From IMG/VR virus record IMGVR_UViG_3300026488_000013, positions 103,051 to 167,050 of that record: DNA of 64,000 nt; one strand, given 5' to 3'. The translations under genes and the position numbers were made by a program. Below are positions 8,978 to 62,535 of the stretch, piece after piece. Source of the DNA: a virus. Every line of letters starts with the position of its first letter. The first letter of the stretch is position 1. The notes below the pieces were generated by a model. It did no database searches and was not told the DNA's origin. It saw nothing but the letters and a program-made list of their open reading frames with translations.

Positions 8978-10366
8978 TTAAGCAAAAGCCAACACCAAAT
9001 AATCTCTCCATTCATTTGGAATATCTATTCTATAACGGAGTGGCTTCATTTTCATAAAATCTTCATCGTCTAACCATAAATCATATGTCGCTTCTATTCC
9101 GTATTTTTCATTTATCACCAATAATTTTTGCGAGGGTCTTGTTAACCATCCTTTTGAATACGAATATTCATCTACACCTTTTAAAGTTCCATTCATAATT
9201 ATAAATCCTGTCCCATCATATAGCATAGCCGGAACATGGAAATGTCCTACAACATAATATGTCATTGGTATGTTCGGTTGTTTTACATTTGGAAAGAAAT
9301 TAATATTTTGCTTATTTCCAAAATCACGCCGCAATCCATAGAAAGGAATACCACTCCAAGATTTAATCTCGTCGCCATGAGAAAAACAAAATCTAAAACC
9401 TAATATATCTTTAAAAATAAATGGAGACTTGGTTATTTCCCATTTTATGTTTTCATATTTTTGAGTTAATAATGCAGCTATTTGATATGTGATATAATCA
9501 AAAGAATTAAATCTTTTCTTATATTCCTTCTTCTTTGTTATCCTTCCATGATTTCCTACCACTGTAAAAACATTTACCTCGTTAAACACTTTTGACAGTT
9601 CTATTAAAAGGGCCGCAATTAAATAAGCAGCCAAACCTATTTGCTCGGTAATCGTTAAATCAACATTTTTAATCAATTCATCATGTATTATTCCCGATAC
9701 CATATCCCCGCCCAACCAAACATTTATTTTTCTAATTCCATCATTACATTCATATAATTTTTTTATCTTTACAACTTTCTCAAATATTTTCTCAACTCTT
9801 CTTGTAGCAACATTTAAATCAAATTTATTAACATATCCTATTTCTTCAGGTTCTACTATTTCTAATATATGCCAATCAGATAAAAGCAATAAAAATTCCC
9901 TCTTCAATTTATTTTTATCTTCAAAATTTATTTTTTCTCTGTCAGAATAATTTATTTCAAATTTTATTTCATTTAAACTATATTTTAAAAATTCGATTAA
10001 AATTTCGTCAATTAATTTTTTATCATTTTTGTTTTTCTCATCGATTAATTTATTATAAATTTCTTTTTTTAAATTTTTTACATTTTCATTTTTCAATAAA
10101 AATTTTAAAAACTCCTCAAAACATTTTTCGTTCAACAAAATTTGTTTCAAAATTTTATTTAATTTTCTGGCTTTATATTCTCTGATTAAATAATTACTCT
10201 GAATTCTTTTTCTACCAGGAATTAATTTTTCAATTATCTCTTTTGAATAATTTTTTGTTTTAATTTTATTTATTATTTCTAAAATAATTTCTTCCAATAA
10301 ATTAATCATTTCATCATTAATTTTTAAATTGTAATTTTTTAAACATTTTAAAATTATTTCTTTCAT
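8978..10366 (-). CDS. Calcineurin-like metallophosphoesterase (SbcD/Mre11-like core)
   Basis: 462 codons. The phosphoesterase motifs occur in order from about residue 160: SDWH (DxH), GGDMVSG (GD), GNHGR (GNHG), FSHGDE (GH-type) and VGHFHVP (GHxH), together binding two metal ions. The N-terminal 140 residues are very Lys/Ile/Asn-rich and helical. Homologous cores are found in SbcD/Mre11 nucleases and other phosphatases; which substrate this one uses cannot be read from sequence. No SbcC/Rad50-like partner is seen in the window. It is the first gene downstream of a repeat element, and no good ribosome site precedes ATG 10366. Confidence 0.8.
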   Translation of the reverse strand: MKEIILKCLKNYNLKINDEMINLLEEIILEIINKIKTKNYSKEIIEKLIPGRKRIQSNYLIREYKARKLNKILKQILLNEKCFEEFLKFLLKNENVKNLKKEIYNKLIDEKNKNDKKLIDEILIEFLKYSLNEIKFEINYSDREKINFEDKNKLKREFLLLLSDWHILEIVEPEEIGYVNKFDLNVATRRVEKIFEKVVKIKKLYECNDGIRKINVWLGGDMVSGIIHDELIKNVDLTITEQIGLAAYLIAALLIELSKVFNEVNVFTVVGNHGRITKKKEYKKRFNSFDYITYQIAALLTQKYENIKWEITKSPFIFKDILGFRFCFSHGDEIKSWSGIPFYGLRRDFGNKQNINFFPNVKQPNIPMTYYVVGHFHVPAMLYDGTGFIIMNGTLKGVDEYSYSKGWLTRPSQKLLVINEKYGIEATYDLWLDDEDFMKMKPLRYRIDIPNEWRDYLVLAFA

Positions 10367-10420
10367 TAGACTTTTAAAACTAATGGATTTTTCGTTTTAA
10401 TTTTTTAAAAAAGAAAAAAA

Positions 10421-10550
10421 TATAATTCTCACATAATTCTTAAATAAATGTTCTTTCAGAAATTAATTTGTTCCATAAATGTATATCATATATAATAGGT
10501 ATATCTTTTATTTATATATTTATCCAATAGATGTATAATTTTATTTGTGT
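10421..10550. repeat. Intergenic repeat copy 1 of 8
   Basis: About 130 bp between the end of the beta-prime fragment gene and the phosphoesterase gene. It closely matches copies at 18381 and 42875 (shared blocks include TTCCATAAATGT, TCTTTTATTTAT and TCCAATAGATGTATAATTTT). On the minus strand it contains an imperfect hairpin (AATTTCT paired with AAGAATT). Function unknown: promoter, terminator, origin element or small RNA are all possible. Confidence 0.75.
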
Positions 10551-10592
10551 GAATAATAAAATAAAATTGGTAAGGGAAATACTACAATTCGA

Positions 10593-13061
10593 TTACATAA
10601 ATATCTTATCAAATGCACTTTCAACATATGTATCTTTTGTTTCAGTTAACATATTTCTAAGTGTCCGCTTTGAAGGTTCGTATAGAAATGCCAATATAGG
10701 AGATAATCTTTCAGATGCCTTGGGTAAGGGCAACTTCACAAACTTTGACAAATCTAATTCGTGGAGCTGGACATTATTATTGTGAATAAAGTATCTTAAG
10801 GTTCTATTTATATCGTCAACATCTTGCTCCGTTTTTGATTCGTTAACTTCTGTATCATTATCCAATTCTATATCTTCTTCTTGTTCTATTTCATTTTCTT
10901 CTTTCAAGAACCATAACGCACTCAATATAGTTTCAATCATTACAGATTTAATAAGTTCTATCCCCAATAAAGTATCTGTTATTTCATCATATGCAGTAAA
11001 TATATCTTTATCTATCATTTTGGATTTTATTATTTTTTCAATATTAACAATTTTTGTAACAATATCGTCGTTTACCAATTTACCATTTCCTTTTACTTTA
11101 AATTTTATTATTCCATTTTCACCTATCTTAACGTCTATTAATTCTATTCTATAATCATACCCATTCTCCTCTAGGAATTTGTTTACTTCATTTATCAACT
11201 GTTGAGGGGTATATTCTTTATTATGGATTTCGATATACCCGTCATCGGTATTAAGTTCGATTTTGTATTTTTCTAATATTTCGTTGGGTATCTTGATTAT
11301 CGCACGGCCGGATGTATGGAATGTGCGTAATATAAGTTGAGTAAACCTTTCAGTTATATATTGGATTGATAACATTCCCAGCTGTTTTGATTTTATGGAT
11401 TCGTATCCTCCGCATTTTTTACATACTTTAAATCCAGGAAGTTTGCAGGTTATAGGGCTTCTTAATAGTATTTCTTTACCAATTATACTTTCGTAGTTAT
11501 TTTTTGTTATTAAAATCTCTCTATTTAATTCTTCATCCTTGTAATATCTTCCTATCAAGGATTTGGCATGAACTTCATTTTTTACCTTTATTTTAAAATA
11601 TTTATCAGTCCCGCAATCTTCCGTATCTTCATCAAACATTATAAATGATAGATTGTATAAACCTGTCCTTTGGAGAAATCCAGAGCGTGGCGTTTGAACC
11701 ATTTTGTCAATCTCTCCTTTTCTTGCACCGTGTGCAGACATAAATAATTCTTTTTTTGTTAAACCTTTATTTAATGGATGTCTTACCGGTTCGGATTGAA
11801 CTATATTTTTTGCATCCGCAAGAAAACCTTTCGTATATATTGTCTGTTCAATTTGGTCTCTGGACGCTCTGGCCCCCGATTGATATATTTTCCAAAGTTC
11901 CGTATCTTTCTTTTCCATTTCTTTAAAAACTATTTCGGAATATTTATTTAAAAGATATAACCCAAATATTGGCTCGTTCGGAATGTTGTTTAATATCTTT
12001 TCCACTTCATCTTTGTTGGGGGTTATATAATCGTCCAACGTTAATTTTGGTGCAATTTTCGAATACGAAAATTCTGATAATACTAACATTATTTCGTGAA
12101 ACAAATCTAAATATCTCCTACCAAATTTTTCCAAATCTTTATCTTCATAAAGTTTTTCTTCCTTGTTTAAATATTCGATTATTACTTCGTTCACAATTCT
12201 TACCTTTTTCTTATTTATATCAGTTTCCTTTAGATAAAGCTTTTTATTAAACACTCTATAATTCAAGTAAACCAACCCATACGGTAATGTTATATTTTGA
12301 TTTTTTATTCTTACTGCATACTTTCTTACATCCTCTTTAAACAGAATAATTGGGTTGGGTTTAAAATCCTCAATCGAATCTATTTCAATTATTTTTTCAA
12401 TATATTTCGTTGTCGATAACTGATTTAGTGCATATAAATATTCATGGCGTAATTTGTGTAAAAAATCATCATTTCTGTGGTATCTCAAGAATGTGGTTGC
12501 ATGAATTCTCTTATTAAATATGTCTTGTTTTGCTTCAACAGTATTTATTGCATACTGTGCCATTGTGTCCTGCACAACTATATCATTTGCTACAAATGTG
12601 AAATTCTTATCCAGTGTCATGTCATATGCTGTTCCTTTTCCAGAATATCTTATTTCAATATCAGTTATAGGTATCCGTTTTACTTTATTATTTGGTAAAA
12701 CTTTGATAAAGTATAGGGATTTCTTAATTTGGAAAGGCATATTTAAAATTTCTACAGGAGATATTTTTTCAAACTCGTCCAGCTCTATATTATAAACAAT
12801 CAGCGAGTGGTCTCCAGATGCTTTAAATGGTTGAAATCTATTTCGTTTATCTTTTATTTCGTAAAGGTCTAAGTTTTCATGGACAGAGAACTCAATTATT
12901 TTTGCTCTTTCAATTTTTCCAGTTTCCATATTAAGCGATTTTGTAAACATATCTTTCATAGGTTTATATTTGATTACTTTGACTCCATCGTTTCTTACAT
13001 ATTCATCAATTTTGATAAAAAATTCTTCTAGAAATTCTTTAACACCAACCATTTTCTTCAT
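10593..13061 (-). CDS. RNA polymerase beta-prime, central fragment preceded by a split-intein C-half
   Basis: 822 codons from ATG 13061, chosen because a TATGGATATG motif lies at the fixed distance upstream; the in-frame start 24 bases earlier would destroy it. Residues 1-165 are an intein C-part that still holds block B (ASGDHSLIVY) and ends NFTFVANDIVVQD. The extein follows at TMAQY, which fits the bases after NADFDGD, the catalytic beta-prime motif. Downstream are typical beta-prime motifs: HGARKG near 442, an EDCGT-like segment, a zinc site (RSPITC ... VCKKCGG, about 538-550) and QLILRTFHTSG near 575. The N-terminal beta-prime portion with the intein N-half is not in the window. The stop is TAA at 10593. 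Confidence 0.85.
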   Translation of the reverse strand: MKKMVGVKEFLEEFFIKIDEYVRNDGVKVIKYKPMKDMFTKSLNMETGKIERAKIIEFSVHENLDLYEIKDKRNRFQPFKASGDHSLIVYNIELDEFEKISPVEILNMPFQIKKSLYFIKVLPNNKVKRIPITDIEIRYSGKGTAYDMTLDKNFTFVANDIVVQDTMAQYAINTVEAKQDIFNKRIHATTFLRYHRNDDFLHKLRHEYLYALNQLSTTKYIEKIIEIDSIEDFKPNPIILFKEDVRKYAVRIKNQNITLPYGLVYLNYRVFNKKLYLKETDINKKKVRIVNEVIIEYLNKEEKLYEDKDLEKFGRRYLDLFHEIMLVLSEFSYSKIAPKLTLDDYITPNKDEVEKILNNIPNEPIFGLYLLNKYSEIVFKEMEKKDTELWKIYQSGARASRDQIEQTIYTKGFLADAKNIVQSEPVRHPLNKGLTKKELFMSAHGARKGEIDKMVQTPRSGFLQRTGLYNLSFIMFDEDTEDCGTDKYFKIKVKNEVHAKSLIGRYYKDEELNREILITKNNYESIIGKEILLRSPITCKLPGFKVCKKCGGYESIKSKQLGMLSIQYITERFTQLILRTFHTSGRAIIKIPNEILEKYKIELNTDDGYIEIHNKEYTPQQLINEVNKFLEENGYDYRIELIDVKIGENGIIKFKVKGNGKLVNDDIVTKIVNIEKIIKSKMIDKDIFTAYDEITDTLLGIELIKSVMIETILSALWFLKEENEIEQEEDIELDNDTEVNESKTEQDVDDINRTLRYFIHNNNVQLHELDLSKFVKLPLPKASERLSPILAFLYEPSKRTLRNMLTETKDTYVESAFDKIFM

Positions 13062-17904: not shown

Positions 17905-18380
17905 TTTCTCCACCTCCTTTATTTTTTTCTTTTAAAAATTTCTTGACATCAAACATCATCTACCAAATCAATTATTTCCAAATTTTAAAACAAACAGCAA
18001 TAATGGAATTCAATCCTCGTCCAACGGTGCTTTAATCACAATAATCAAATATATCCATATTGGTTTTTTATTCTCTCTTATTTAAGTGTAAGATTTTTTT
18101 CTTTCTTAGAAATAAATCAATTTTTGTTTATCTGCAAGTTTTCCAAATTATTCTGTTTCTACATTTGGGTTATTAATATCTTATTTAATTTCCTTTCATT
18201 TAAATGTTTTTATTTTTTCTTAAATATTTTAGTATTTAATTTATTAAAAAATTTCTATTTTTGTTTTAAGGCCTAAACTTGTAATTTCATCTTTTATTTA
18301 TTAAATCCTCTTTTTAAAAATTTTGAAACAAAGCCTTATAATAATTTTAGTTCTGTTTTTTATTTTTTAAAGAAAAAAAA

Positions 18381-18516
18381 GTGAAATATATTTTTCCACA
18401 TAATTCTTAAATAACTGTCCTTTCAAGAATTGATTTGTTCCATAAATGTGTATCATATATAATAAGTATTTCTTTTATTTATATCTTTATCCAATAGATG
18501 TATAATTTTATTTGTT
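18381..18516. repeat. Intergenic repeat copy 2 of 8
   Basis: Very similar over its whole length to copy 1 (10421) and copy 3 (42875). It contains the inverted repeat AATTCTT / AAGAATT and, adjacent, GTGGAAA / TTTCAC. The plus strand also has a GATGTATAAT box near its right end. Confidence 0.75.
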
Positions 18517-18574
18517 TCTATTGCAAATTCAATTTTTAACTCAATTCTCTACTTTGTTTTTAAGGAATCAATAT

Positions 18575-20633: not shown

Positions 20634-20798
20634 TTTTTTTCTTATATTCTATGTTAATGACACAGAGGAATTTCTTAATATTAAATGAATATATAAAAGT
20701 TGAAATGATTTATGAATTGAATTCGACATTTGTAAAAACAAAAATATAAATAATGACTTAAAAAATTATAGAAAAATAGAAAAGAAAACTAATATAGA

Positions 20799-20856
20799 GA
20801 TTTTATAGGGAAATCTGCGGGCTAAAACCCCGTATCTATGATGTGGAGCAGTTCAC
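20799..20856 (+). ncRNA. Candidate structured element ending GCAGTTCAC
   Basis: A GC-rich island between the converging nrdB and 20853 genes. It contains GATTT/AAATC and CGGG/CCCG hairpins and the block CCCGTATCTATGATGTGGAG then CAGTTCAC, which aligns with the 3' end of the structured region at 57.95 kb. It may be a bidirectional terminator or a small RNA end. Confidence 0.4.
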
Positions 20857-21515
20857 ATTTTATACTTTAAATTTCTTATTGCATCGATTAATTCTATTAC
20901 AAAACTCAAATTTCTATAGTATGGAACCTCTAGGATTTTATCTAATTCGCCATCTTTAATATCATATCCAAATATTTTATTTATTGCTCTTTTTATTATA
21001 TATTTGGCTATATTGCTGCTTGTTATATCATCCTCATACTCGAATTCATATATTATATCTTTATAATTTTCAATTTCATTTACTAGAATATCTTTCAAAA
21101 TCTCTATAATTCTGTTATAAAATCTTTCATCTATAATTCTCTTCATCAATGATTTTATTTTGAAAATTCCCTCGGTATGAGGGGATAATAATATTTTTGT
21201 AATATTTGTAGGAATATTTCCGAATTTTCTGTTAAAATACTCTTCAATCAAATACTCGAACTCTTTTCTAAGATACTCATTTTCAACCCAATTTATGTAT
21301 TTGAGTTCCACTATAAGCTCCATTATATCTTTTCCATTTTTATCTTCTATAATTTCTTTATCAGATATGATATAAATGTTAAAGTCATTGACTATTGGTG
21401 TGTCCTTTTCTATATTTATTATTGGCTCTAAATATATAGCATATATCTTTGTATTATTATCTGTTTTATATTTTTTATCTATTTTTGTCACGATTTTGAC
21501 GGTTCTAGCCATCAT
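20853..21515 (-). CDS. Unknown 220-residue protein after the PolB palm gene
   Basis: 220 codons from the first of two adjacent ATGs at 21515, chosen because TCTACGGAAATATATCGGTT precedes it at the fixed spacing; the longer frame up to 21563 would overlap the polymerase gene. The protein is Ile/Glu/Lys/Tyr-rich with alternating strand and helix and no recognised motif. Stop is TGA. It follows the PolB middle fragment by 34 bases but has its own start signal. Confidence 0.65.
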   Translation of the reverse strand: MMARTVKIVTKIDKKYKTDNNTKIYAIYLEPIINIEKDTPIVNDFNIYIISDKEIIEDKNGKDIMELIVELKYINWVENEYLRKEFEYLIEEYFNRKFGNIPTNITKILLSPHTEGIFKIKSLMKRIIDERFYNRIIEILKDILVNEIENYKDIIYEFEYEDDITSSNIAKYIIKRAINKIFGYDIKDGELDKILEVPYYRNLSFVIELIDAIRNLKYKM

Positions 21516-21549: not shown

Positions 21550-22710
21550 TTAATATAAAGCATTTATTCTCTTCTCCAGGTTTTTGTTTAAATATTTCTG
21601 AACACCGGCCTGGGCGAATTTAATCATGAATTTTGAATTCATTGTTATTGGACTTCCTATATTTTTATCGTTTAGGATAAATGTAGGAACAATATTTACA
21701 CCATATGATACCGCATTAAGTTGAGGTTTTACAACCTTTCCTTGTAGTTTATCATAATATGAATATTTGAAGTTATCCCCTTTCTCATACCAATATGCGG
21801 AGGTTTTCTTTAGTTGTTTCCGCAAACTCATATAATCATCTATAAATCCAACCATTATACCTACTTGGTTGTCGTGTTTTTCAAATAGTGCCCCACTAAA
21901 TGTTAGAACATATTTTTTCAAATATTTCTCTATAAATTCATCGATAGTTATTTCCCTGATTTTAATCTTATTACTGGTCGGATTATCAACTACTATTACT
22001 CTAAACTTTTCCCATTCTTTATCACTTTTTATACCTAAATATAGTTTTAGGTATTCTTTATATTTTCTAATATTACCCTTCGCTACAATCCAAAAGTATA
22101 TCAATTTATTTGTTTCATCATCCTTATATGACAAAAGATGTGTATAGTTTTCTAGAAATGGTATTAATCTGGTTTTTAATACAATGTAATCCTCACCGTT
22201 CATTATTCCATCTAAAGTATATTCGGCAAAAACATACATGAGTTCATCCAATATTTTTAAAGTGAATTTTAGATTGTTTTCTATAATCTCTTTTTTCTTG
22301 TTTGGCTTATACCATTCTACAAACGATAAAATTAGTCGATTAAATGATTCTTTAAACGAATTTTTAAGATTTAAAATCTTAGATTTTAAGACCGTTTTCT
22401 TCTTAGGTTTATCTGTGTTGACAAATTCTTGCACATATTTAGAGAACTTCCTTAATGCATCGATAAGCTTATACGTTTGGGGAGGATATACTCTGGCCCG
22501 AAGAGTAGTGAAGTCTATATTAAACATTTTTACTGTAGAAGGATACATGGATGTGTTGTGAACAAGAATATAATAATCAGATTTTGGGTCTTTGGCAAAA
22601 AATCTTTCAGTATCTTCTACAGAAATATCATATACATAATCATCCTCAATTTCTATAATTTCTATGCTTTCAATTTCGTCAATAAACCAAACTCTTCTTC
22701 TTTCTATCAT
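21550..22710 (-). CDS. DNA polymerase B, middle (palm/fingers) fragment with split-intein C-half
   Basis: 386 codons. Residues 1-52 are an intein C-half: block F VYDISVEDTERFFA and the canonical end YYILVHN. The extein begins TSMYPSTV, which joins the DFDQ end of the exonuclease gene (26.3-27.8 kb) to give DFDQTSMYPST, the family-B motif A in the T4 gp43 style (SFDLTSLYPS). Further on is a motif B-like segment KPQLNAVSYG and a following helix like that in T4 (SKFMIKFAQAGVQKYL). The gene stops at NALY before motif C, which is in a third gene (29.5-32.0 kb). AAAGGGGG precedes ATG 22710. Trans-splicing with the N-terminal gene is inferred. Confidence 0.87.
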   Translation of the reverse strand: MIERRRVWFIDEIESIEIIEIEDDYVYDISVEDTERFFAKDPKSDYYILVHNTSMYPSTVKMFNIDFTTLRARVYPPQTYKLIDALRKFSKYVQEFVNTDKPKKKTVLKSKILNLKNSFKESFNRLILSFVEWYKPNKKKEIIENNLKFTLKILDELMYVFAEYTLDGIMNGEDYIVLKTRLIPFLENYTHLLSYKDDETNKLIYFWIVAKGNIRKYKEYLKLYLGIKSDKEWEKFRVIVVDNPTSNKIKIREITIDEFIEKYLKKYVLTFSGALFEKHDNQVGIMVGFIDDYMSLRKQLKKTSAYWYEKGDNFKYSYYDKLQGKVVKPQLNAVSYGVNIVPTFILNDKNIGSPITMNSKFMIKFAQAGVQKYLNKNLEKRINALY

Positions 22711-26327: not shown

Positions 26328-27839
26328 CTAAATTAAAATCAACTTATCTCCTATTTTTAATTTGCCAGCATCCTTTAATTCTATTCTTTGTTTTTTATCG
26401 TTATAAACAAAAATTGAATGATTTTCTGTAACTTTTATTACAGCTCCAGATTTTGTTTTTATTTTCAATATTTTGTATTTTCTTTTATGTTGTATTTTCC
26501 CTTTTATCTTTTTCCAAACAACATTACCATTTTTATCTAATGTTAAAGTTTCATCTCCTTCCTCAAACTTATATTCGCCAATCGGAACCTCTCTAATTAC
26601 TCCATTTTCTTTTTTAATCAATATTAATTGGTCATAAGTTAATGATTGGTCAAAATCCATTATTAGTCCTGTTATATATCTGGGTTTGGTTTTTTTAACA
26701 TATGCTCCGAATATTTTTGTTGAAAAATATGTCTCTTTAAATACATCCATTTGCGATGGATATGGGAATTTTTCATATGGCAAAAATGACCTGATTTCGG
26801 AATTATCTCTTTCGGTTAAGATATTACGCATAATGTCTTCGCCATATTTTGTTGCCCCACGGTATGCCATTTTAAACAGTGATTTGGACATTCGTCGTAA
26901 AGAATTATAAGTGTTTATAATGTCCAACTTTTTATCCAGGGCTTTAACCAATAAAGTATCTACAATGTTATAAAAAATATAATCTTCTATATGTTCTTTA
27001 TATGCCAAATCGAAATCTTTCCCTTGTGATGTTTTTAATTCAACCTTTTTAATGCCGAGCTCTTGTTTAGAAATATAGTCCAATTCATATGTTTCTTGAG
27101 TATCACCAAAACCTAACCCTTCGCCGGGCTTATACATGTATAAAATATCAACAAACATCAAATCTGGTGCTTGCAATCCATAGGCTTTCGAATATTGCAC
27201 TGTTTTAAATTTGGATATTACTTCGCCCGGGTTGTCTACTCCTAGATTAATAAGTCTGTTATAAATATATGGGAAGTCAAAATCATCCGAATAAAACCCG
27301 GCTATCGTCCAGACATTTTGCTTTTGAATTAAGTCGAATACATCTTTTATCATTTGCTTCTCTGCATCTATACACGGTTCGCCGCAGGTCTTAGCTTGCA
27401 GATTTTTATTATTCTTCGGAGTATAAATCTTTAATATTACTTTTATATCCTCTTCCGTCTCGAAAATTTCTTTAAGTTTTGAATAATGAGTATTTATAGA
27501 TTTTTCCAAACACTCTCTTAATTCATTCGGATTTTCGATAAAATATTTGTGTTGTTTATATTTGGGGTTTAACAAACAAAAAGCATAAACTTCATTTTTA
27601 TGAGAAAATGCCAATGAAATCAATACTATTGGATATTCCGCCTTGGAAGGTTCGGGAAACACTCCAACAAATCTAGTAAATACCTCTATGTCTATGTATG
27701 CTTTCCTAAAAAATTGTGGGGCATCATAATTATCTTTTTCTTTTCTCTTTTGATACCACTCCAAAGCACGCTGTCTGTCGGGCGAGTATTCTAATGAATA
27801 AAATTGCCATGGTTTTAATTTTTTCAAATTAGCTGCCAT
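26328..27839 (-). CDS. DNA polymerase B, N-terminal 3'-5' exonuclease fragment ending in split-intein N-half
   Basis: 503 codons from ATG 27839 (an in-frame ATG 15 bases upstream overlaps the GGGGG ribosome site). Exonuclease motifs: Exo I AYIDIEVF (Asp50/Glu52), Exo II GFYSDDFDFPYIYNR and Exo III YNIVDTLLV, as in T4 gp43-like enzymes. The extein ends GLIMDFDQ; then a 105-residue intein N-half begins SLTYDQLILI (block A with Ser1) and contains block B (KVTENHSIFVY, TxxH). Together with the 52-residue C-half at 22.7 kb this makes a mini-intein without an endonuclease domain. The mature polymerase would need trans-splicing at motif A. Confidence 0.88.
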   Translation of the reverse strand: MAANLKKLKPWQFYSLEYSPDRQRALEWYQKRKEKDNYDAPQFFRKAYIDIEVFTRFVGVFPEPSKAEYPIVLISLAFSHKNEVYAFCLLNPKYKQHKYFIENPNELRECLEKSINTHYSKLKEIFETEEDIKVILKIYTPKNNKNLQAKTCGEPCIDAEKQMIKDVFDLIQKQNVWTIAGFYSDDFDFPYIYNRLINLGVDNPGEVISKFKTVQYSKAYGLQAPDLMFVDILYMYKPGEGLGFGDTQETYELDYISKQELGIKKVELKTSQGKDFDLAYKEHIEDYIFYNIVDTLLVKALDKKLDIINTYNSLRRMSKSLFKMAYRGATKYGEDIMRNILTERDNSEIRSFLPYEKFPYPSQMDVFKETYFSTKIFGAYVKKTKPRYITGLIMDFDQSLTYDQLILIKKENGVIREVPIGEYKFEEGDETLTLDKNGNVVWKKIKGKIQHKRKYKILKIKTKSGAVIKVTENHSIFVYNDKKQRIELKDAGKLKIGDKLILI

Positions 27840-27920
27840 GCTCAAGACCCCCATACTTAGGTGTTAACAAAAAAATAAATTCAAAACAAAGGACGTATAC
27901 AAAGTATTTTTATTTTTTTC

Positions 27921-29512: not shown

Positions 29513-32035
29513 TTATGGAATTAAAAAATTAAAAAAATAACCAGAATTAGAATGTTCCGTTTTAATAGCCGAAATAATTTTGTCAAAATTTTTTATTTTT
29601 TCATCTAATACCTTTTCTCTTTGTGTCTGAAAATCTATCTCTATACCAACTTCTTTCAATTTGTCCAATAGGAATTTGGGTTTTATTCCCGGCGGGACAA
29701 AAATAACATTTATTTTTTCCTTTATCCACTGTAAAGGATTTTTCATTGTAAATATCTCCTTTAATTGATAACCCGACAACTCGGTTTTTTTCTTGGTTTT
29801 CAATATTTCGTCTATTCTTTTTTTCAACTTTAATGGATTAGTTATTTTAATAGAAAGTCTGTATGATTTTTTACCGGGGCGCAATTCATCCTTAAAAATT
29901 GTATTCCAAAATTTGGCTGCTAAAACATACGCAGGTTCCTTTTTATAATTTGCCTTAGACCATGAGCTGGGTATTCCGATATATTTTAAGTTTAATTCTC
30001 TAACACTCTCGTTATATCTATTTACCCAATACATTTTCCTTTCAATATATACTGCAGGCAGTTTTTCGATTTCTCTTCTATAATCTATAAATGTTTGAAT
30101 AATATCCATTTGTAGTTCCTTAGTAAATGGGGCCGCATCGGAGCGAACAACCTCAAATCCGGTAATTTTAACTTTGGGTGGGTCATATAAAACTTTATCA
30201 TCCATTAACATATTCACAAAATATCTTTTTTTAGCATCAATAAATGCTATCGCATCCATAACAATTTCTGTTTTGAAATCTAATGTGTTCCATTCCGGAG
30301 ACACATTACAATAATTCAAAACTTCCCCTTGCCATCTTTGCTTTAGATAATCGTTGATTTCTATAGCCAACGGTTTTATAAAATCTTCATATACCTTTTT
30401 AACTATTTCTGGTTTTGATAAATCCCAACCTCTTTCTAATATCCTAGTGTAATTATCAATAAACACAAATAATGAATCAGTGTCTGAATACAGAATATTC
30501 GGAATATTGTTATCTTTCTCAACATCCATAAAGAATGTCGGTGTTGTTATTATATTTTCTTCATCATCATTGATATCAAATACTGCGGTTTCACCCGTCG
30601 CAAATGGTCTATATCCAGAGTATTCTTCAATTTTATTTTCCAATTTGGTCTTAATCTGTAATTTATTAAACTCATACTCCAATTCTTCTAAAACATAATG
30701 TTTCCTTTTATACATTTCAGTATGCGATTCTATTATGTCTTTAAATTCGTCTAGCTTTGAACGCTGTAAATCTTTATAAAATTTGTAATCATATATTATT
30801 TCCGAATTTAGATTCTCACGGTTTTCAATAAAAGAAATTTCTTTTATATCGTTGGTTCTATCCGTAAAATACACTGTATGGCTAAAAGGGATTTTCCAAT
30901 AATAGATTTCATCCGTATCTTTTTTAGTAGTTATAAACAGATATTCGTTTGTTTCCTGAAGAATATTAATATCTAACAACAAGTATTCATCTGGTATTTC
31001 ATCGGGAGAACTTACCTTAAATACATTAATATCTTCCTGCTCAAAATTATTGTTTGTTTTCCCTGGCCTTGATGCAGATTTAATATGTTTTATTTCTTCT
31101 TGTAAAAATGAGAAGAATTTTTCATATTCAGGCGGAGTATCTATATTTTCACGTATATATTTTGATGGGTGAGTTAAATAATACACTTTTATATTTTTTT
31201 CATTAATTAATTGCTGGAGTTGCTCCGAGGATTCTATTAAATTCCTATTTTCACCTTTCCCTAAAACAACAATTATATCTGGGTCAAACTGATTTATTTC
31301 TTCTATCAGATTATTGACACAGAAGTTCTTAAAAATATCGATTAACGGAACTTCTGAGACATTTTTCAATGTTTCTTGGTTAGAAGTTGAACATTTTATG
31401 GAGTTGGTAAAAATATATCTACAATTCAATTGTTCGGTATATTTTCTTAACAATTGACCTGCTTTTCCAACAAAAGGCTCGCCTCTCTTTGCTTCTTCTG
31501 TCCCCGGATTTATCCCAACAAAAAGTATAGTAGGTTTGTCGATATTACTATTAAAAATTTTATAAGAAACTTTCCTTAAATCCTTATTTAAAAGTGGACA
31601 GTTCAAACAATATTTAGAATAAATATTTTCATATTTTTTATACTTATTCCTATAGTACAGAACAAAACTATCCTCTATATTTTTGTTATTGTCAATTTCT
31701 GATAAAACTGGATGTGAATAATTGTTGATTGGATTCTTAGTATAAGGTAGATTCTTTAATTCGTCTAGGTTAAATTCGCCGGGATTATTGAAGTATAAAG
31801 GGATAATTTCATTTAAAAAATAAACGATTAAATCCTGAAGTTTATATTTATTGTGAGCACTTTTATTTAGGTCTAACAATTTAATAAAAATATTATTAAG
31901 TCGAGGGGAATTAGAAAATATTCTAAACAGTTGCTTCAATACGAAACTATAATTATCTCTTATTATATCGATTTCGTCGTTATTTAGCTTTTCTCCATTA
32001 AAAGGTTTTACAATCAGGTCTAACAACTGTCGCAT
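29513..32035 (-). CDS. Fusion of family-4-like uracil-DNA glycosylase with C-terminal palm/thumb fragment of DNA polymerase B
   Basis: 840 codons. Residues about 140-320 look like a [4Fe-4S] family-4 UDG: Cys143 and Cys146 (CLNC), motif GINPGTEEAKRGEPFVGKAG (174-193), TNSIKC (Cys215), Cys239, LGKG, and THPS (His289). Residues about 510-840 are the rest of PolB: NILYSDTDSLFVF is motif C with both catalytic Asp (516-521), followed by KTEIVMDAIAFIDAKKRYF and YKKEPAYVLAAKFWN in the thumb. Motifs A and B are in the gene at 21.6-22.7 kb. No intein is seen at this second break, so the pieces presumably associate non-covalently. ATG 32035 has GAGGA upstream. Confidence 0.85.
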   Translation of the reverse strand: MRQLLDLIVKPFNGEKLNNDEIDIIRDNYSFVLKQLFRIFSNSPRLNNIFIKLLDLNKSAHNKYKLQDLIVYFLNEIIPLYFNNPGEFNLDELKNLPYTKNPINNYSHPVLSEIDNNKNIEDSFVLYYRNKYKKYENIYSKYCLNCPLLNKDLRKVSYKIFNSNIDKPTILFVGINPGTEEAKRGEPFVGKAGQLLRKYTEQLNCRYIFTNSIKCSTSNQETLKNVSEVPLIDIFKNFCVNNLIEEINQFDPDIIVVLGKGENRNLIESSEQLQQLINEKNIKVYYLTHPSKYIRENIDTPPEYEKFFSFLQEEIKHIKSASRPGKTNNNFEQEDINVFKVSSPDEIPDEYLLLDINILQETNEYLFITTKKDTDEIYYWKIPFSHTVYFTDRTNDIKEISFIENRENLNSEIIYDYKFYKDLQRSKLDEFKDIIESHTEMYKRKHYVLEELEYEFNKLQIKTKLENKIEEYSGYRPFATGETAVFDINDDEENIITTPTFFMDVEKDNNIPNILYSDTDSLFVFIDNYTRILERGWDLSKPEIVKKVYEDFIKPLAIEINDYLKQRWQGEVLNYCNVSPEWNTLDFKTEIVMDAIAFIDAKKRYFVNMLMDDKVLYDPPKVKITGFEVVRSDAAPFTKELQMDIIQTFIDYRREIEKLPAVYIERKMYWVNRYNESVRELNLKYIGIPSSWSKANYKKEPAYVLAAKFWNTIFKDELRPGKKSYRLSIKITNPLKLKKRIDEILKTKKKTELSGYQLKEIFTMKNPLQWIKEKINVIFVPPGIKPKFLLDKLKEVGIEIDFQTQREKVLDEKIKNFDKIISAIKTEHSNSGYFFNFLIP

Positions 32036-42548: not shown

Positions 42549-42874
42549 ACTTATTCCTCCTTTTAATATTTTTCTCAATTAAAAAATTTTAATTAAAATT
42601 TTTAATTGCACATTTTAATAGTTATATTATTAAACCCATAATAAAATTTATCATATTTTAAAAAAAAATTGTTAAATAAATTTATTTCAAAAATTAATCT
42701 AATAAAATAATTTAATTTAAAATTTATTCTTCAATATTTTTTTCATCTTTATTTTTTCTTTATATAAGAAAAAAATTTTCTTTTTCTTTTCATTTTCAAA
42801 ATTTTGGAATAAATTTTTACTTATTTTTTAATTCAAAAATTTATAATAAAAATTTACTTTTTTAGTTAAAAATG

Positions 42875-43010
42875 AAAGATATAATTCTTACATAACTCTT
42901 AAATAATTGTTCTTTCAAAAATTAATTTGTTTCATAAATGTGTATCTTATATACTAGGTATTTCTTTTATTTATGTATTTATCCGATAAATGTATAGTTT
43001 TATTTGTTTT
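42875..43010. repeat. Intergenic repeat copy 3 of 8
   Basis: Full-length match to copies 1 and 2 (TCATAAATGTGTATCTTATA, TTCTTTTATTTATGTATTTATCC, then TGTATAGTTTTATTTG). It lies upstream of the primase-clamp operon. Confidence 0.75.
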
Positions 43011-43069
43011 AGATATTAAACAAAATTTGTTGTTAGTTTCTTCTTTTTCCAATTTAAAATAAAAGCTAA

Positions 43070-56843: not shown

Positions 56844-57581
56844 TTAGGTAGGGATTTTTGGACGGAAAATTGCTTTTACTGTTTTCCATAATTCTTTTGT
56901 TATATTTATTTCTCTGTTTTCGGGATAGATGGTCAAATGAGCGAAGAAAACTTCTGATATTTCTTCCTCAACTTCTTCTGTATTCAATAAATGGCCTATC
57001 GATTCTAAAGGTATTGTTTCAGTATATGACGGCCAGTATGGATTCTCCTCAGTATAATAATGTATTTTTACTACAGGATTACCTTCTGAATCTGTGTAAA
57101 AATCCCAACTGTACTCCATATTACCCGCCCGTTCAGCTATCCAACGATATAGGTCGGGATAGTAAACCTGGGTTCCGAAGCTTTTTGCAGTAATGTCTAT
57201 ATAAATACTTAATTTCTTTCCCACCCCGTATGGTGTTGTTTCACATTTAATAATAGAATTTGATATTCTTTTACCATTTAACAAATCGTTAATTTGATAA
57301 TTACTAAATCCTGCTTCTCTTAGAAATTTCGGCAGGAGATTTCGCAATTTTAATAGCTTTTTTTTGAGTTCGTTGTATCCTAATTTTATTTCAAATTGAC
57401 TATCTCGTTTCGAACATCCAAAAACATCTGATAATAGTCTTAATCCAAAACGGTAATCACTTGTCAGCGGGAATTCCTCGTCACAATTTAAAACTTTTAT
57501 TTTAAATTTATTTATTCTTTTTGACTTGGCTTCATCCAGATATTGTTTAATTGTTTGGTCAAATAACGTTGTGTTTTGCAT
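56844..57581 (-). CDS. Unknown 245-residue protein
   Basis: 245 codons of mixed alpha/beta sequence with many aromatic residues near the end (HYYTEENPYWPSYTETIP). The middle contains a helix-turn-helix-like stretch LREAGFSNYQINDLLNGKR. No family recognised. Start follows ACTATGGATAATTATCGGGT. It is the first gene downstream of the structured region at 57.7-58.0 kb. Confidence 0.6.
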   Translation of the reverse strand: MQNTTLFDQTIKQYLDEAKSKRINKFKIKVLNCDEEFPLTSDYRFGLRLLSDVFGCSKRDSQFEIKLGYNELKKKLLKLRNLLPKFLREAGFSNYQINDLLNGKRISNSIIKCETTPYGVGKKLSIYIDITAKSFGTQVYYPDLYRWIAERAGNMEYSWDFYTDSEGNPVVKIHYYTEENPYWPSYTETIPLESIGHLLNTEEVEEEISEVFFAHLTIYPENREINITKELWKTVKAIFRPKIPT

Positions 57582-57601: not shown

Positions 57602-57680
57602 TGAAAATAGATTTTGAAAATCTAACAAAAATAAATGAAGGGAGTATTCAAAAACTCTATAAAGAATTTCATAGAAAATA

Positions 57681-57718
57681 GTCGCCGGAACCCCCCCATC
57701 ACAGATAGGGGGAACGAC
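57681..57718. other. GC-rich hairpin GTCG-CCCCC / GGGGG-CGAC
   Basis: GTCG (57681) pairs with CGAC (57715) and CCCCC (about 57691) with GGGGG (57708), with a ten-base loop. Its beginning GTCGCCGGA is shared with the element at 23396. It precedes the larger structured region by about 50 bases and may be its left boundary, or a terminator for the opposite strand. Confidence 0.5.
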
Positions 57719-57756
57719 CAAAGAAGAAAAATACTCGCAAACTCCAAAATTTTTAC

Positions 57757-57990
57757 TATAATTTGAATACCAAGGCGGACAGGTTCCTTAGAAACACAAG
57801 GAGATAGGCAATTCCCCTATCCCCAACCCGCAAGGTTATTAAAAACTTGCAGGTTAGACTAAAAACAAATACAAGCCCCTTGTGAGGGGACGGGTAAACA
57901 ACCCACCTTGGTGGGGCTACTTTCTTTTAGAGTAGCCACTACCTAAAGTCAAGTCCCGTATTTCTAATGCAGGGCGGTTGACTTATTTTT
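57757..57990 (+). ncRNA. Candidate structured non-coding RNA, about 220 nt
   Basis: No gene fits here, yet the region is GC-rich and full of successive hairpins: GATAGG/CCTATC (57803, 57816), AACCCGCAAG/CTTGCAGGTT (57825, 57846), CCCCT/AGGGG (57876, 57885), CCCAC/GTGGG (57902, 57911), GGCTACT/AGTAGCC (57915, 57931) and AAGTCAA/TTGACTT (57946, 57978). The last is followed by ATTTTTTAATTT, like a terminator. TATAAT at 57757 would start a plus-strand transcript near 57769. I do not recognise the family. Strand choice rests on the -10-like box and T-run; the structure also reads on the minus strand. Confidence 0.55.
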
Positions 57991-58387
57991 TAATTTGTTT
58001 GACTTTATTAATAATTTCAGATACAATATGATGAGGTTTTCGTCGCCAATTGTTGGATATAACAATATCTGCTAACTCCGAATATTTTTGTTTTCTCATG
58101 TTATATAATTCTTTCAATTCATTTATTGATAACCTCTTAATTAATGGCCTATTCTTTAGAGTTGATAGTTTATTTTTGACAACATTGAACGGTATATTAA
58201 TCCAAACTACTATTGTATCATCCTTATATTTATCTTTAATCAATTTTATCGCATCTTCGTTGGCTCCTAGGCCGCCGCCAGTAGATATAACACAATTATG
58301 ATTGCAAGAGTTTAATATTTCTTTAAATTTATCCAATTCGAAGTTCCTAAACTTACCCTCCATAAAAACAGTTTTTAATACAATCAC
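57983..58387 (-). CDS. Shikimate-kinase-like protein lacking the P-loop
   Basis: 134 codons from GTG 58387, whose GTGA overlaps the TGA stop of the upstream gene. An ATG at 58363 is an alternative. The sequence matches the C-terminal two thirds of shikimate kinases: GKFRNFELDKFKEIL (for GE-x-x-FR-x-x-E), CVISTGGGLGANED (GGG substrate loop), VVWINIPFNVVKNKL, LKNRPLIKR (lid) and MRKQKYSELADIVI (adenine-binding R-x-x-x-Y-x-E-x-AD). The first about 40 residues with the GxxGxGKS ATP loop are missing, and the upstream frame is another gene. It cannot be a normal kinase alone. Confidence 0.6.
   Translation of the reverse strand: MIVLKTVFMEGKFRNFELDKFKEILNSCNHNCVISTGGGLGANEDAIKLIKDKYKDDTIVVWINIPFNVVKNKLSTLKNRPLIKRLSINELKELYNMRKQKYSELADIVISNNWRRKPHHIVSEIINKVKQIKK
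58361..58382 (-). promoter_or_regulatory. AAAACTGTTTT palindrome plus GGAGG inside the shikimate-kinase-like gene
   Basis: Coding strand AAAAACTGTTTTTATGGAGG. Here the internal ATG 58363 overlaps the signal itself, unlike the other copies, so a real start further downstream was perhaps lost. Confidence 0.45.
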
Positions 58388-60482: not shown

Positions 60483-60559
60483 TCTAAAATTATAACCATA
60501 CTTAATTTATTAAATGTGTTTTTTCATAATCTCAAGATTGTTTTTTAATTTAAATGTAT

Positions 60560-60579
60560 TTTACGGGTATTTAATCAGC
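60560..60579 (+). promoter_or_regulatory. Leaderless-type start motif, first paralogue
   Basis: TTTACGGGTATTTAATCAGC before ATG 60580. About 75 bases including this motif (from TTATTAAATGTGTTTTTTCA) are duplicated before the second paralogue. Confidence 0.6.
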
Positions 60580-61488
60580 ATGGTGAAAGAACTGTTAATT
60601 AAGGATTTCAATACTATGTATAAGATTATTTTTAATCAAAACAAGAATAGGGATAACACAAGATTGGAATTTAAAATATTTCAGGATGATGATAAAATCA
60701 TAGACGGTTATATAGCTATTTCCGATAAAATGAAAAATAGCGATTGGTTAGAATTACAATTTACCAGTTATAGAATACCTCATTTATATTATCGTTTTAA
60801 AGATTACGATGCAATAGCAGAATTGTTAGCAATTAGAAAAATAGAGGACATTGAAAAACCCATATTAGACGACAAATTTTTTAGATGCATAAGCTGGTGG
60901 ATTTACAGCCAAGGAGGTGATGTAGTAGAGAAAAAAATATTAACCGCAATAGAACTTAAAAATTATGATGAACTAAAACCTATATTGAGAAGTTTAATTA
61001 TAGGTGATGTCATAAATATATTCTATAAATATTCAGATGGTTTTTTAAATATCGACTTATCTGAGCTATGGTATACCAAAAGTAAATATGAACGCAAAGA
61101 GCCGTATACAAATTTCAGAACATCAGACGAATTTATAGAATTCTTCTATAAAGAAATATGGAATAAATTAGAAGAAAAAGGCAATAAAATAGAACTGGAA
61201 ATATTTAATGAATTTTGGGAATGTATAATGGAGGCAATAAAATGGTATAAAGAAAACAAATTAAAACTCAATAAAAGGAAAATTTGGTTATTGGATATTT
61301 TAAGAGCTATATATTTAATAAGGGGATATGAAATGTATGAAATTCCATACAGATATAGGTTTATATTAAACGAAGCGTTTGACCCGTTTGAGATAGAAGA
61401 TTTAAAAAACTTTTATAAAATGCAAGTTAGTGATATAATTATAAATAAATATATAATACCATTAATAGAAGAAAAAGAAATAGTTTGA
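60580..61488 (+). CDS. Unknown protein, paralogue A of a tandem pair
   Basis: 302 codons from ATG 60580, chosen by the motif at fixed distance; the frame extends 22 codons upstream in non-protein-like sequence. It starts MVKELLIKD. Shared blocks with paralogue B: RLEFKI, IDGYIAI, NWLEL-like, KPILDDK, EKKILTAIELKNYDELKPIL and YKEIWNKLEE. Mixed alpha/beta with no recognised motif; not obviously an enzyme. Stop TGA. Confidence 0.7.
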   Translation: MVKELLIKDFNTMYKIIFNQNKNRDNTRLEFKIFQDDDKIIDGYIAISDKMKNSDWLELQFTSYRIPHLYYRFKDYDAIAELLAIRKIEDIEKPILDDKFFRCISWWIYSQGGDVVEKKILTAIELKNYDELKPILRSLIIGDVINIFYKYSDGFLNIDLSELWYTKSKYERKEPYTNFRTSDEFIEFFYKEIWNKLEEKGNKIELEIFNEFWECIMEAIKWYKENKLKLNKRKIWLLDILRAIYLIRGYEMYEIPYRYRFILNEAFDPFEIEDLKNFYKMQVSDIIINKYIIPLIEEKEIV

Positions 61489-61632: not shown

Positions 61633-62535
61633 ATGGTGAAAGAGTTAGTAATAAAAGATAATTTTTTCGATTACAAAATAAGTTTTATTCAGAGCGAAGA
61701 TTTGCATATTGCAAGATTAGAATTTAAAATATCTCAGAACGAAGAAAAACTTATAGATGGATATATAGCAATTCCAAATAAAATAGGAAATAGAAATTGG
61801 TTAGAACTACATTACACTTATTATGGTTTAAAACCTATATATGAACAATTTAAAGATTATAATGCAATAGCGAAATTAATATCGATTAGAAGAATAAAAG
61901 ATATGGATAAACCTATATTGGATGATAAGCTTTTTAGATATATAAGCTGTTGGATTTATAATCAAAAAGGAAATGAAATAGAGAAAAAAATATTAACCGC
62001 AATAGAACTTAAAAATTATGATGAACTAAAACCTATATTGAGAACTTTAATTATAGGTGAAGATAAAAACATATTCTATAAATATTCAGAAGATTTATTA
62101 GATGATGAATTATATCATATATGGTTTTTTAATAGTAATTACTATCGTAAAGAGCCATATATAAAATTTGATGACTATAATGAATTTAGATATTTCTTCT
62201 ATAAAGAAATATGGAACAAATTGGAAGAGAAACAAGATGAAATAGAACTGGAAATATTTAGCGAATTCCAGAAATATATAATAAAAGCAGTAAACTGGTA
62301 TATAAAAAATAAAGAAAAACTTAATAAAAGGAAAATCTGGGTATTGGATATTTTAAGAGCTCTATATTTGGTGACCATATACGAAAGATACAAAATTCCA
62401 TATAGACACAAAATAATATTGAATAAAATATATAATAATCCATTTGATATAGTAGATTTAAAAGAATTTAGACAAGGCATTCGAAATATAATTAAATTCA
62501 GATATATTGAACCGCTAATAGAAGAAAAAGTTTAA
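61633..62535 (+). CDS. Unknown protein, paralogue B of a tandem pair
   Basis: 300 codons, starting MVKELVIKDN. Roughly 60% similar to paralogue A across the whole length, but bases 61979-62044 are identical to 60926-60991, far above the average. The duplication includes the promoter region. Function unknown; paralogue pairs of this kind in phage accessory regions often act against host systems, but nothing in the sequence shows this. Confidence 0.7.
   Translation: MVKELVIKDNFFDYKISFIQSEDLHIARLEFKISQNEEKLIDGYIAIPNKIGNRNWLELHYTYYGLKPIYEQFKDYNAIAKLISIRRIKDMDKPILDDKLFRYISCWIYNQKGNEIEKKILTAIELKNYDELKPILRTLIIGEDKNIFYKYSEDLLDDELYHIWFFNSNYYRKEPYIKFDDYNEFRYFFYKEIWNKLEEKQDEIELEIFSEFQKYIIKAVNWYIKNKEKLNKRKIWVLDILRALYLVTIYERYKIPYRHKIILNKIYNNPFDIVDLKEFRQGIRNIIKFRYIEPLIEEKV

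Follow-up and report, generated by a model that had tools for sequence, protein, structure and literature searches.

The analysed window comprises the last 64 kb of a linear viral contig of 167,050 bp, derived from a tailed phage that carries multisubunit RNA polymerase genes and has a GC content of 28%. A GC-rich island without credible ORF (57670-57984, hereafter R) is flanked by two minus-strand ORFs: one of 245 residues, which starts at 57581, and a shikimate-kinase-like one, whose stop is at 57983. The latter ORF (57983-58387, minus strand) lacks the N-terminal P-loop part of its family, as it covers profile positions 44-158 only, and its stop codon adjoins the right end of R. The GC content is about 0.49 near position 57871 (100-nt windows) against 0.28 for the whole genome, and the sole listed ORF of at least 50 residues inside R is the tail of a mechanical minus-strand ORF of 69 residues. 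The description of the locus as a GC-rich, ORF-less island in an A/T genome, proposed in a sequence-only reading, was thereby borne out. The plus strand of R is A-rich (AT skew +0.33), which fits its being the sense strand.

The plus strand of the stretch 57660-57995 was predicted to fold at -99 kcal/mol, against -74 ± 5.2 kcal/mol for shuffled sequences (z = -4.83, reached by 0 of 100 shuffles); the minus strand of the same stretch folds less strongly (z = -3.17). Seven hairpins were seen on the plus strand, where at least six stems had been announced. The leftmost (57681-57718) pairs GTCG..CCCCC with GGGGG..CGAC. Two others, 57803-57821 (GATAGG/CCTATC) and 57825-57855 (AACC.CGCAAG/CTTGC.GGTT), belong to the 5' domain of the putative RNA (57770-57870). 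The remaining four form a 3' module and are referred to as W (57876-57889, CCCCT/AGGGG), S1 (57892-57904, GGGT/ACCC), S2 (57910-57943, GGTGG/CTACC), which encloses a further hairpin S3 (GGCTACTTT/AGAGTAGCC), and S4 (57946-57984), whose foot is AAGTCAA/TTGACTT. The closing stem AAGTCAA/TTGACTT was therefore recovered as first described. The terminator attributed to it was not: the scan did not report this stem as a terminator, and the T-run following the stem is flanking DNA outside the element. The TATAAT motif, previously placed in front of the structured interval, is in fact located inside it (57757-57762); no good -35 hexamer is paired with it and the sigma-70 consensus scan omits it.

Several known identities were considered and rejected. 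The Rfam scan suggested in the sequence-only reading gave no family for R at the gathering thresholds, and at E ≤ 10 just two meaningless lncRNA matches far below the cut-offs; the tRNA/tmRNA search was negative. No match of R was obtained with the Rfam model of HEARO, the IscB omegaRNA. The strings AGACTA and TAGTC occur in R and recall a group I intron, yet RF00028 gave no match in R at E ≤ 10; a permuted group I intron, prompted by the same strings, was dropped on the same ground. As a positive control, RF00028 detected a genuine group I intron in another part of the phage contig, outside the window (E = 9.6e-17). This intron, at contig positions 6128-7411 (minus strand), is interrupted or split and sits in a region where GC-rich islands are found beside RNA polymerase gene pieces. 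Searches by blastn of R against phages and plasmids returned short chance matches only. DNA patterns taken from the right end of R gave only unrelated matches in viral contigs and genomes, a single spurious one in the latter, and no syntenic relative was found with the neighbouring proteins as anchors.

Relatives of R were found within the same phage, so that the term 'orphan' applied to it at first no longer holds. Two of them, E1 (contig 9604-9922) and E2 (contig 18229-18551), share 85% identity across 325 bp and both are protein-less. They open with TTTATAGAAAAT and a hairpin, followed by a TATAATT spacer, a multi-stem RNA and a hairpin then GTTCAC. Their sequences diverge past GTTCACT, which marks the element boundary there, and the copies sit in differing flanks. 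Two mini-elements of about 55 bp (m1 and m2) consist of the left end joined directly to the right-end hairpin; m2 is found in the window on the plus strand (20804-20856) and ends with AGTTCAC. Around contig position 1000 there is also a right-end relic, whose terminal ATGCAGGGTAGTTGACT is intermediate between the E copies and R. Where databases offer no match, orphan-looking structured islands of AT-rich phages can thus still be assigned by comparing sequences of one and the same genome. A second family of right-end-like sequences without tnpB (GAAGCCCCTCACTAAAGTGAGGGG...) was also observed in the contig, at 165-420, 10560-10830 and 99150-99420 (minus strand), with 73-86% identity.

R was placed on E1 and E2 by MAFFT and local alignment. 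The three are collinear end to end, with a ATAGAAAAT start, the TATAATT spacer and an ATGC.GGG..GTT(C/G)ACT end, which delimits a whole element of about 313 bp on the plus strand (57670-57982). No copy of R's own sequence was found elsewhere in the contig by DNA search, and the positions of its ends therefore rest on E1 and E2. The left end (57670-57718) comprises CATAGAAAAT and the leftmost hairpin; its motif TTTATAGAAAAT with the hairpin is the one that also opens E1, E2 and the two mini-elements. In the promoter-like spacer around TATAAT (57750-57770), TTTTTACTATAATTTGAAT aligns with TTTTACATATAATTAAAAT of E2. The left end, the TATAATT spacer, the 3' RNA module and the right end are shared by R and E1/E2. 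R differs in ending with GTTGAC instead of GTTCAC and in its 5' RNA domain, which is not clearly homologous to that of E1/E2, and the overall identity is low. The layout given by the sequence-only reading is supported for the 3' part and missed that the 5' hairpin is the left end of an element.

With a transition-tolerant score, R reached 124 and 114 against E1 and E2 while shuffled sequences averaged about 71 ± 9 (0 of 500 attaining R's value), and of the 10,782 windows compared (both strands, 1.1 Mb) no other outside the E copies matched as well. The plain score was weaker, R's value being reached by 4 and 15 of 500 shuffles. Because the transition-tolerant score had been picked with the alignment known, an independent test was run with a covariance model. 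A model from relatives had been put forward at the outset as a check; the one used here was built from the 3' 99 nt of the same-phage copies E1 and E2 only and run unfiltered over the window, and its E-values are rough. The top match was m2 (20791-20857, E = 0.0023) and the second was R itself (57885-57983, E = 0.0068), at full model length and on the same strand. Third came the TnpB gene of the window, matched at its 3' end (E = 0.55), followed by a weak match to the left end of R (57634-57721, E = 0.96). Over 29 phage records, matches of the E1/E2 model were found in this phage only. Alignment of the RNA polymerase identified a distant relative phage (32% identity), in which neither R, by DNA, nor a match of the E model was found. 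E-derived patterns searched in viral contigs gave matches that were coding or due to chance. In a null search with model R1, the best match (L163, 21.7 bits) is biased as the locus was picked by an E-derived pattern; loci not picked in this way gave no match at E ≤ 10.

In the minimum-energy folds, the 3' module of R, E1 and E2 shows the same order: W, S1, S2 enclosing S3, and S4. W of R occupies the position of W in E1/E2, and the exact pairs of S2 differ between the energy fold of R and the model alignment. In E1/E2 the terminal hexamer GTTCAC has its complement, GTGAAC, within the S1 loop (6 bp). The scaffold of R ends with GGTTGAC at 57982, and its GGTTG is complementary to the segment CAACC of S1 (57899-57903; 5 bp), with the same S1 offset as in E1/E2. 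Taken singly, such pairings are expected by chance in about 1% (E1/E2, 6 bp) and 9% (R, 5 bp) of cases. In R, S1 must shift to keep the CAACC segment free, and can do so. The foot of S4 contains GTCAA/TTGAC in R where E1/E2 have GAA/TTC.

This organization recalls the omegaRNA of ISDra2 from Deinococcus radiodurans, which has four stems and in which the UUC preceding the guide forms a pseudoknot with a GAA lying upstream, beside stem 1; sequence-based prediction had instead paired it with a second GAA, nearer the 3' end at the base of stem 4 (PMC10097598). R has the same stem order (1, 2 enclosing 3, 4), a would-be guide in flanking DNA, a pre-guide 3' end that may pair with the stem 1 region and, at the base of stem 4, a second complement that competes for it; E1/E2 have two competing GAA segments, as in ISDra2 (PMC10097598). 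The likeness is one of architecture and no sequence likeness is claimed. Surveyed TnpB omegaRNAs have just one consistently conserved feature, a hairpin no more than 10 nt away from the scaffold 3' end (PMC10278001), and in R, S4 proper ends at 57975 and the scaffold at 57982. By analogy with TnpB omegaRNAs, the guide would be TTATTTTTTAATTTGTTTGA (57983-58002, plus strand), a T-rich sequence for which the genome offers no second clean target. The resemblance of the 3' part to the end of a TnpB omegaRNA, noticed in the sequence-only reading, is thus supported by the covariance model as well as by the stem order and the putative 3'-end pairing. The ISDra2 omegaRNA overlaps the 3' end of tnpB, whereas R has no tnpB gene directly upstream and has a promoter-like site ahead of the RNA. 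As modelled, R is built like a TnpB omegaRNA, yet without an attached tnpB it is not a standard one.

TnpB proteins and their guide RNAs are the ancestors of Cas12, and normally form one unit within a transposon. That no tnpB is adjacent to R was confirmed: the only TnpB of the contig is a C-terminal part on the opposite strand, cut by the contig end (63584-63997, minus strand; Cas12f1-like_TNB, E = 1.4e-20). It belongs to a distinct family and has its own omegaRNA-like 3' end, in which TGACAC pairs with GTGTCA, the same 3'-end pairing logic as in R with different letters. The contig, possibly an incomplete one, yielded no second TnpB-like gene, no TnpB of a type matching R and no Y1_Tnp (TnpA) match.

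The fold appears to be maintained by selection. The cleaner evidence is the comparison of E1 with E2, in which 55 of 64 consensus pairs are unchanged, 6 differ at both positions and 3 at a single position, pairing being preserved in all of them. The compensatory changes in homologues on which the sequence-only reading had made its structured RNA depend are therefore present, and as E1 and E2 are protein-less, the fold was kept without an adjacent tnpB. In the model alignment, which was fitted to the model and where helix 2 of R differs from the energy fold, 98.9% of helix cells pair and 9 pairs are changed on both sides. Judging from the E1/E2 substitutions, the fold is selected after protein loss; this applies to an RNA or a single-stranded DNA fold alike, as pair conservation cannot distinguish them.

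A parallel for such elements is found in the PATEs of Haloquadratum walsbyi, which contain no protein gene and no terminal inverted repeats but have near-terminal palindromes related to those of IS605-type transposons, and whose core deletion gives terminal-only versions of 52 bp (PMC3119063). R likewise has no protein gene and carries subterminal palindromes (57681-57718 and 57946-57984), the left one weakly matched by the right-end model. E1, E2, m1, m2 and the right-end relic form a multi-copy set with common ends, of which R itself is one divergent copy, and the minis of about 55 bp are similar to the core-deleted PATEs. PATEs were described in a haloarchaeon; R is found in a tailed phage and its interior retains a conserved omegaRNA-like RNA domain. 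From the stem order and 3'-end pairing, as in ISDra2, and the terminal-only copies, as in PATEs, R (57670-57982, plus strand) is read as a protein-less, PATE-like element of IS200/IS605 type with an omegaRNA-like RNA. We give this reading a probability of about 0.8, its function and mobility being inferred; the 5' RNA domain unlike that of E1/E2, the T-rich guide region and the lack of a -35 consensus were counted against it, as were the single copy of R, the 9% chance level of its 5-bp pairing and the failure to find TnpA or a matching TnpB in the contig. Under this reading, the two end hairpins would be the substrate of a Y1 transposase (TnpA) provided by another element or the host, and the flanks AAAGAATTT and TTATTTTTTAATTTG are the pieces that would adjoin at the empty site. 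The RNA would be made from its own promoter, starting probably just after the TATAAT, and its last ~110 nt would adopt the omegaRNA architecture with GGTTGAC pairing back to the S1 region. By analogy, flanking DNA past the 3' end would be read as guide, and a TnpB of the matching type, with its gene at another place, would take up the RNA. This TnpB would then cut the donor site vacated by the element, favouring element retention.

A serious rival for R itself keeps this identity and differs on activity: R could be the inactive remnant of an IS200/IS605 element from which tnpA and tnpB have been lost and whose omegaRNA-like part is decaying without function. Only one copy of R is present and it is divergent, the contig has no protein gene to match it, this phage also contains relics reduced to a right end or to a mini-element, and such elements are often core-deleted (PMC3119063). 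All 3' helices are nevertheless retained in R with compensatory changes, and the double changes without broken pairs in the protein-less E1 and E2 also argue against decay, leaving the relic a possible but doubtful explanation. IS200/IS605 end hairpins act as single-stranded DNA. The hairpins of R could accordingly serve only in this form, as a replication or recombination site or as transposase substrate with no RNA function, and the pair conservation is blind to the difference. This is considered unlikely, since compensatory changes are also seen in W, S1 and S3, stems of the interior that do not belong to the end hairpins, and the pairing of the 3' end with S1 is typical of omegaRNA.

Two further explanations were considered. 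A regulatory or structural phage ncRNA unrelated to transposons and fixed between two genes would account for the strong fold, the clean intergenic position and the promoter-like site of R, and requires no Rfam family. It is nonetheless improbable, as the element-like ends are common to the repeated E copies, the minis consist of the two ends only and the omegaRNA-type architecture was detected by a model built without R. R could also provide the guide RNA of a TldR-like repressor, a domesticated TnpB without nuclease activity that the phage or its host would encode: TldR RNA-guided repressors encoded by phages are known (PMC13418256), and the RNA of R stands alone with a promoter-like site. 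With no second TnpB-like gene on the contig, a T-rich guide region without clean target in this genome and E copies that differ in their flanks in a transposon-like manner, this function is very improbable. Returning to the protein-less IS200/IS605-type element, the conservation by compensatory change of an omegaRNA fold in copies without protein suggests that there is a benefit in retaining just the RNA, and hence that different elements, or a phage and its host, may share guide RNAs in trans. More tentatively, R and its relatives might be RNA-only mobile elements that discarded transposase and nuclease and kept under selection a guide RNA with its own promoter, a TnpB encoded elsewhere, by phage or host, serving for maintenance or to fight rival phages.

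Other features of the phage were noted in the course of the analysis. The family B DNA polymerase is encoded in two pieces of the window (21550-22710 and 26328-27854, minus strand), with a third piece at 29513-32035. Read by eye, the ends of the pieces resemble split-intein halves (DFDQ|S... and ...VHN|TSMYPS), and from these sequences protein trans-splicing may join the polymerase pieces. An AT-rich repeat of about 170 bp is dispersed over intergenic regions, with copies about 80-95% identical; it is found in the window at 10396-10568, 18357-18515 and 42826-43029, and further upstream in the contig. Finally, two tandem duplicate genes of no known family (60514-61488 and 61633-62535, plus strand) share 76% nucleotide identity.
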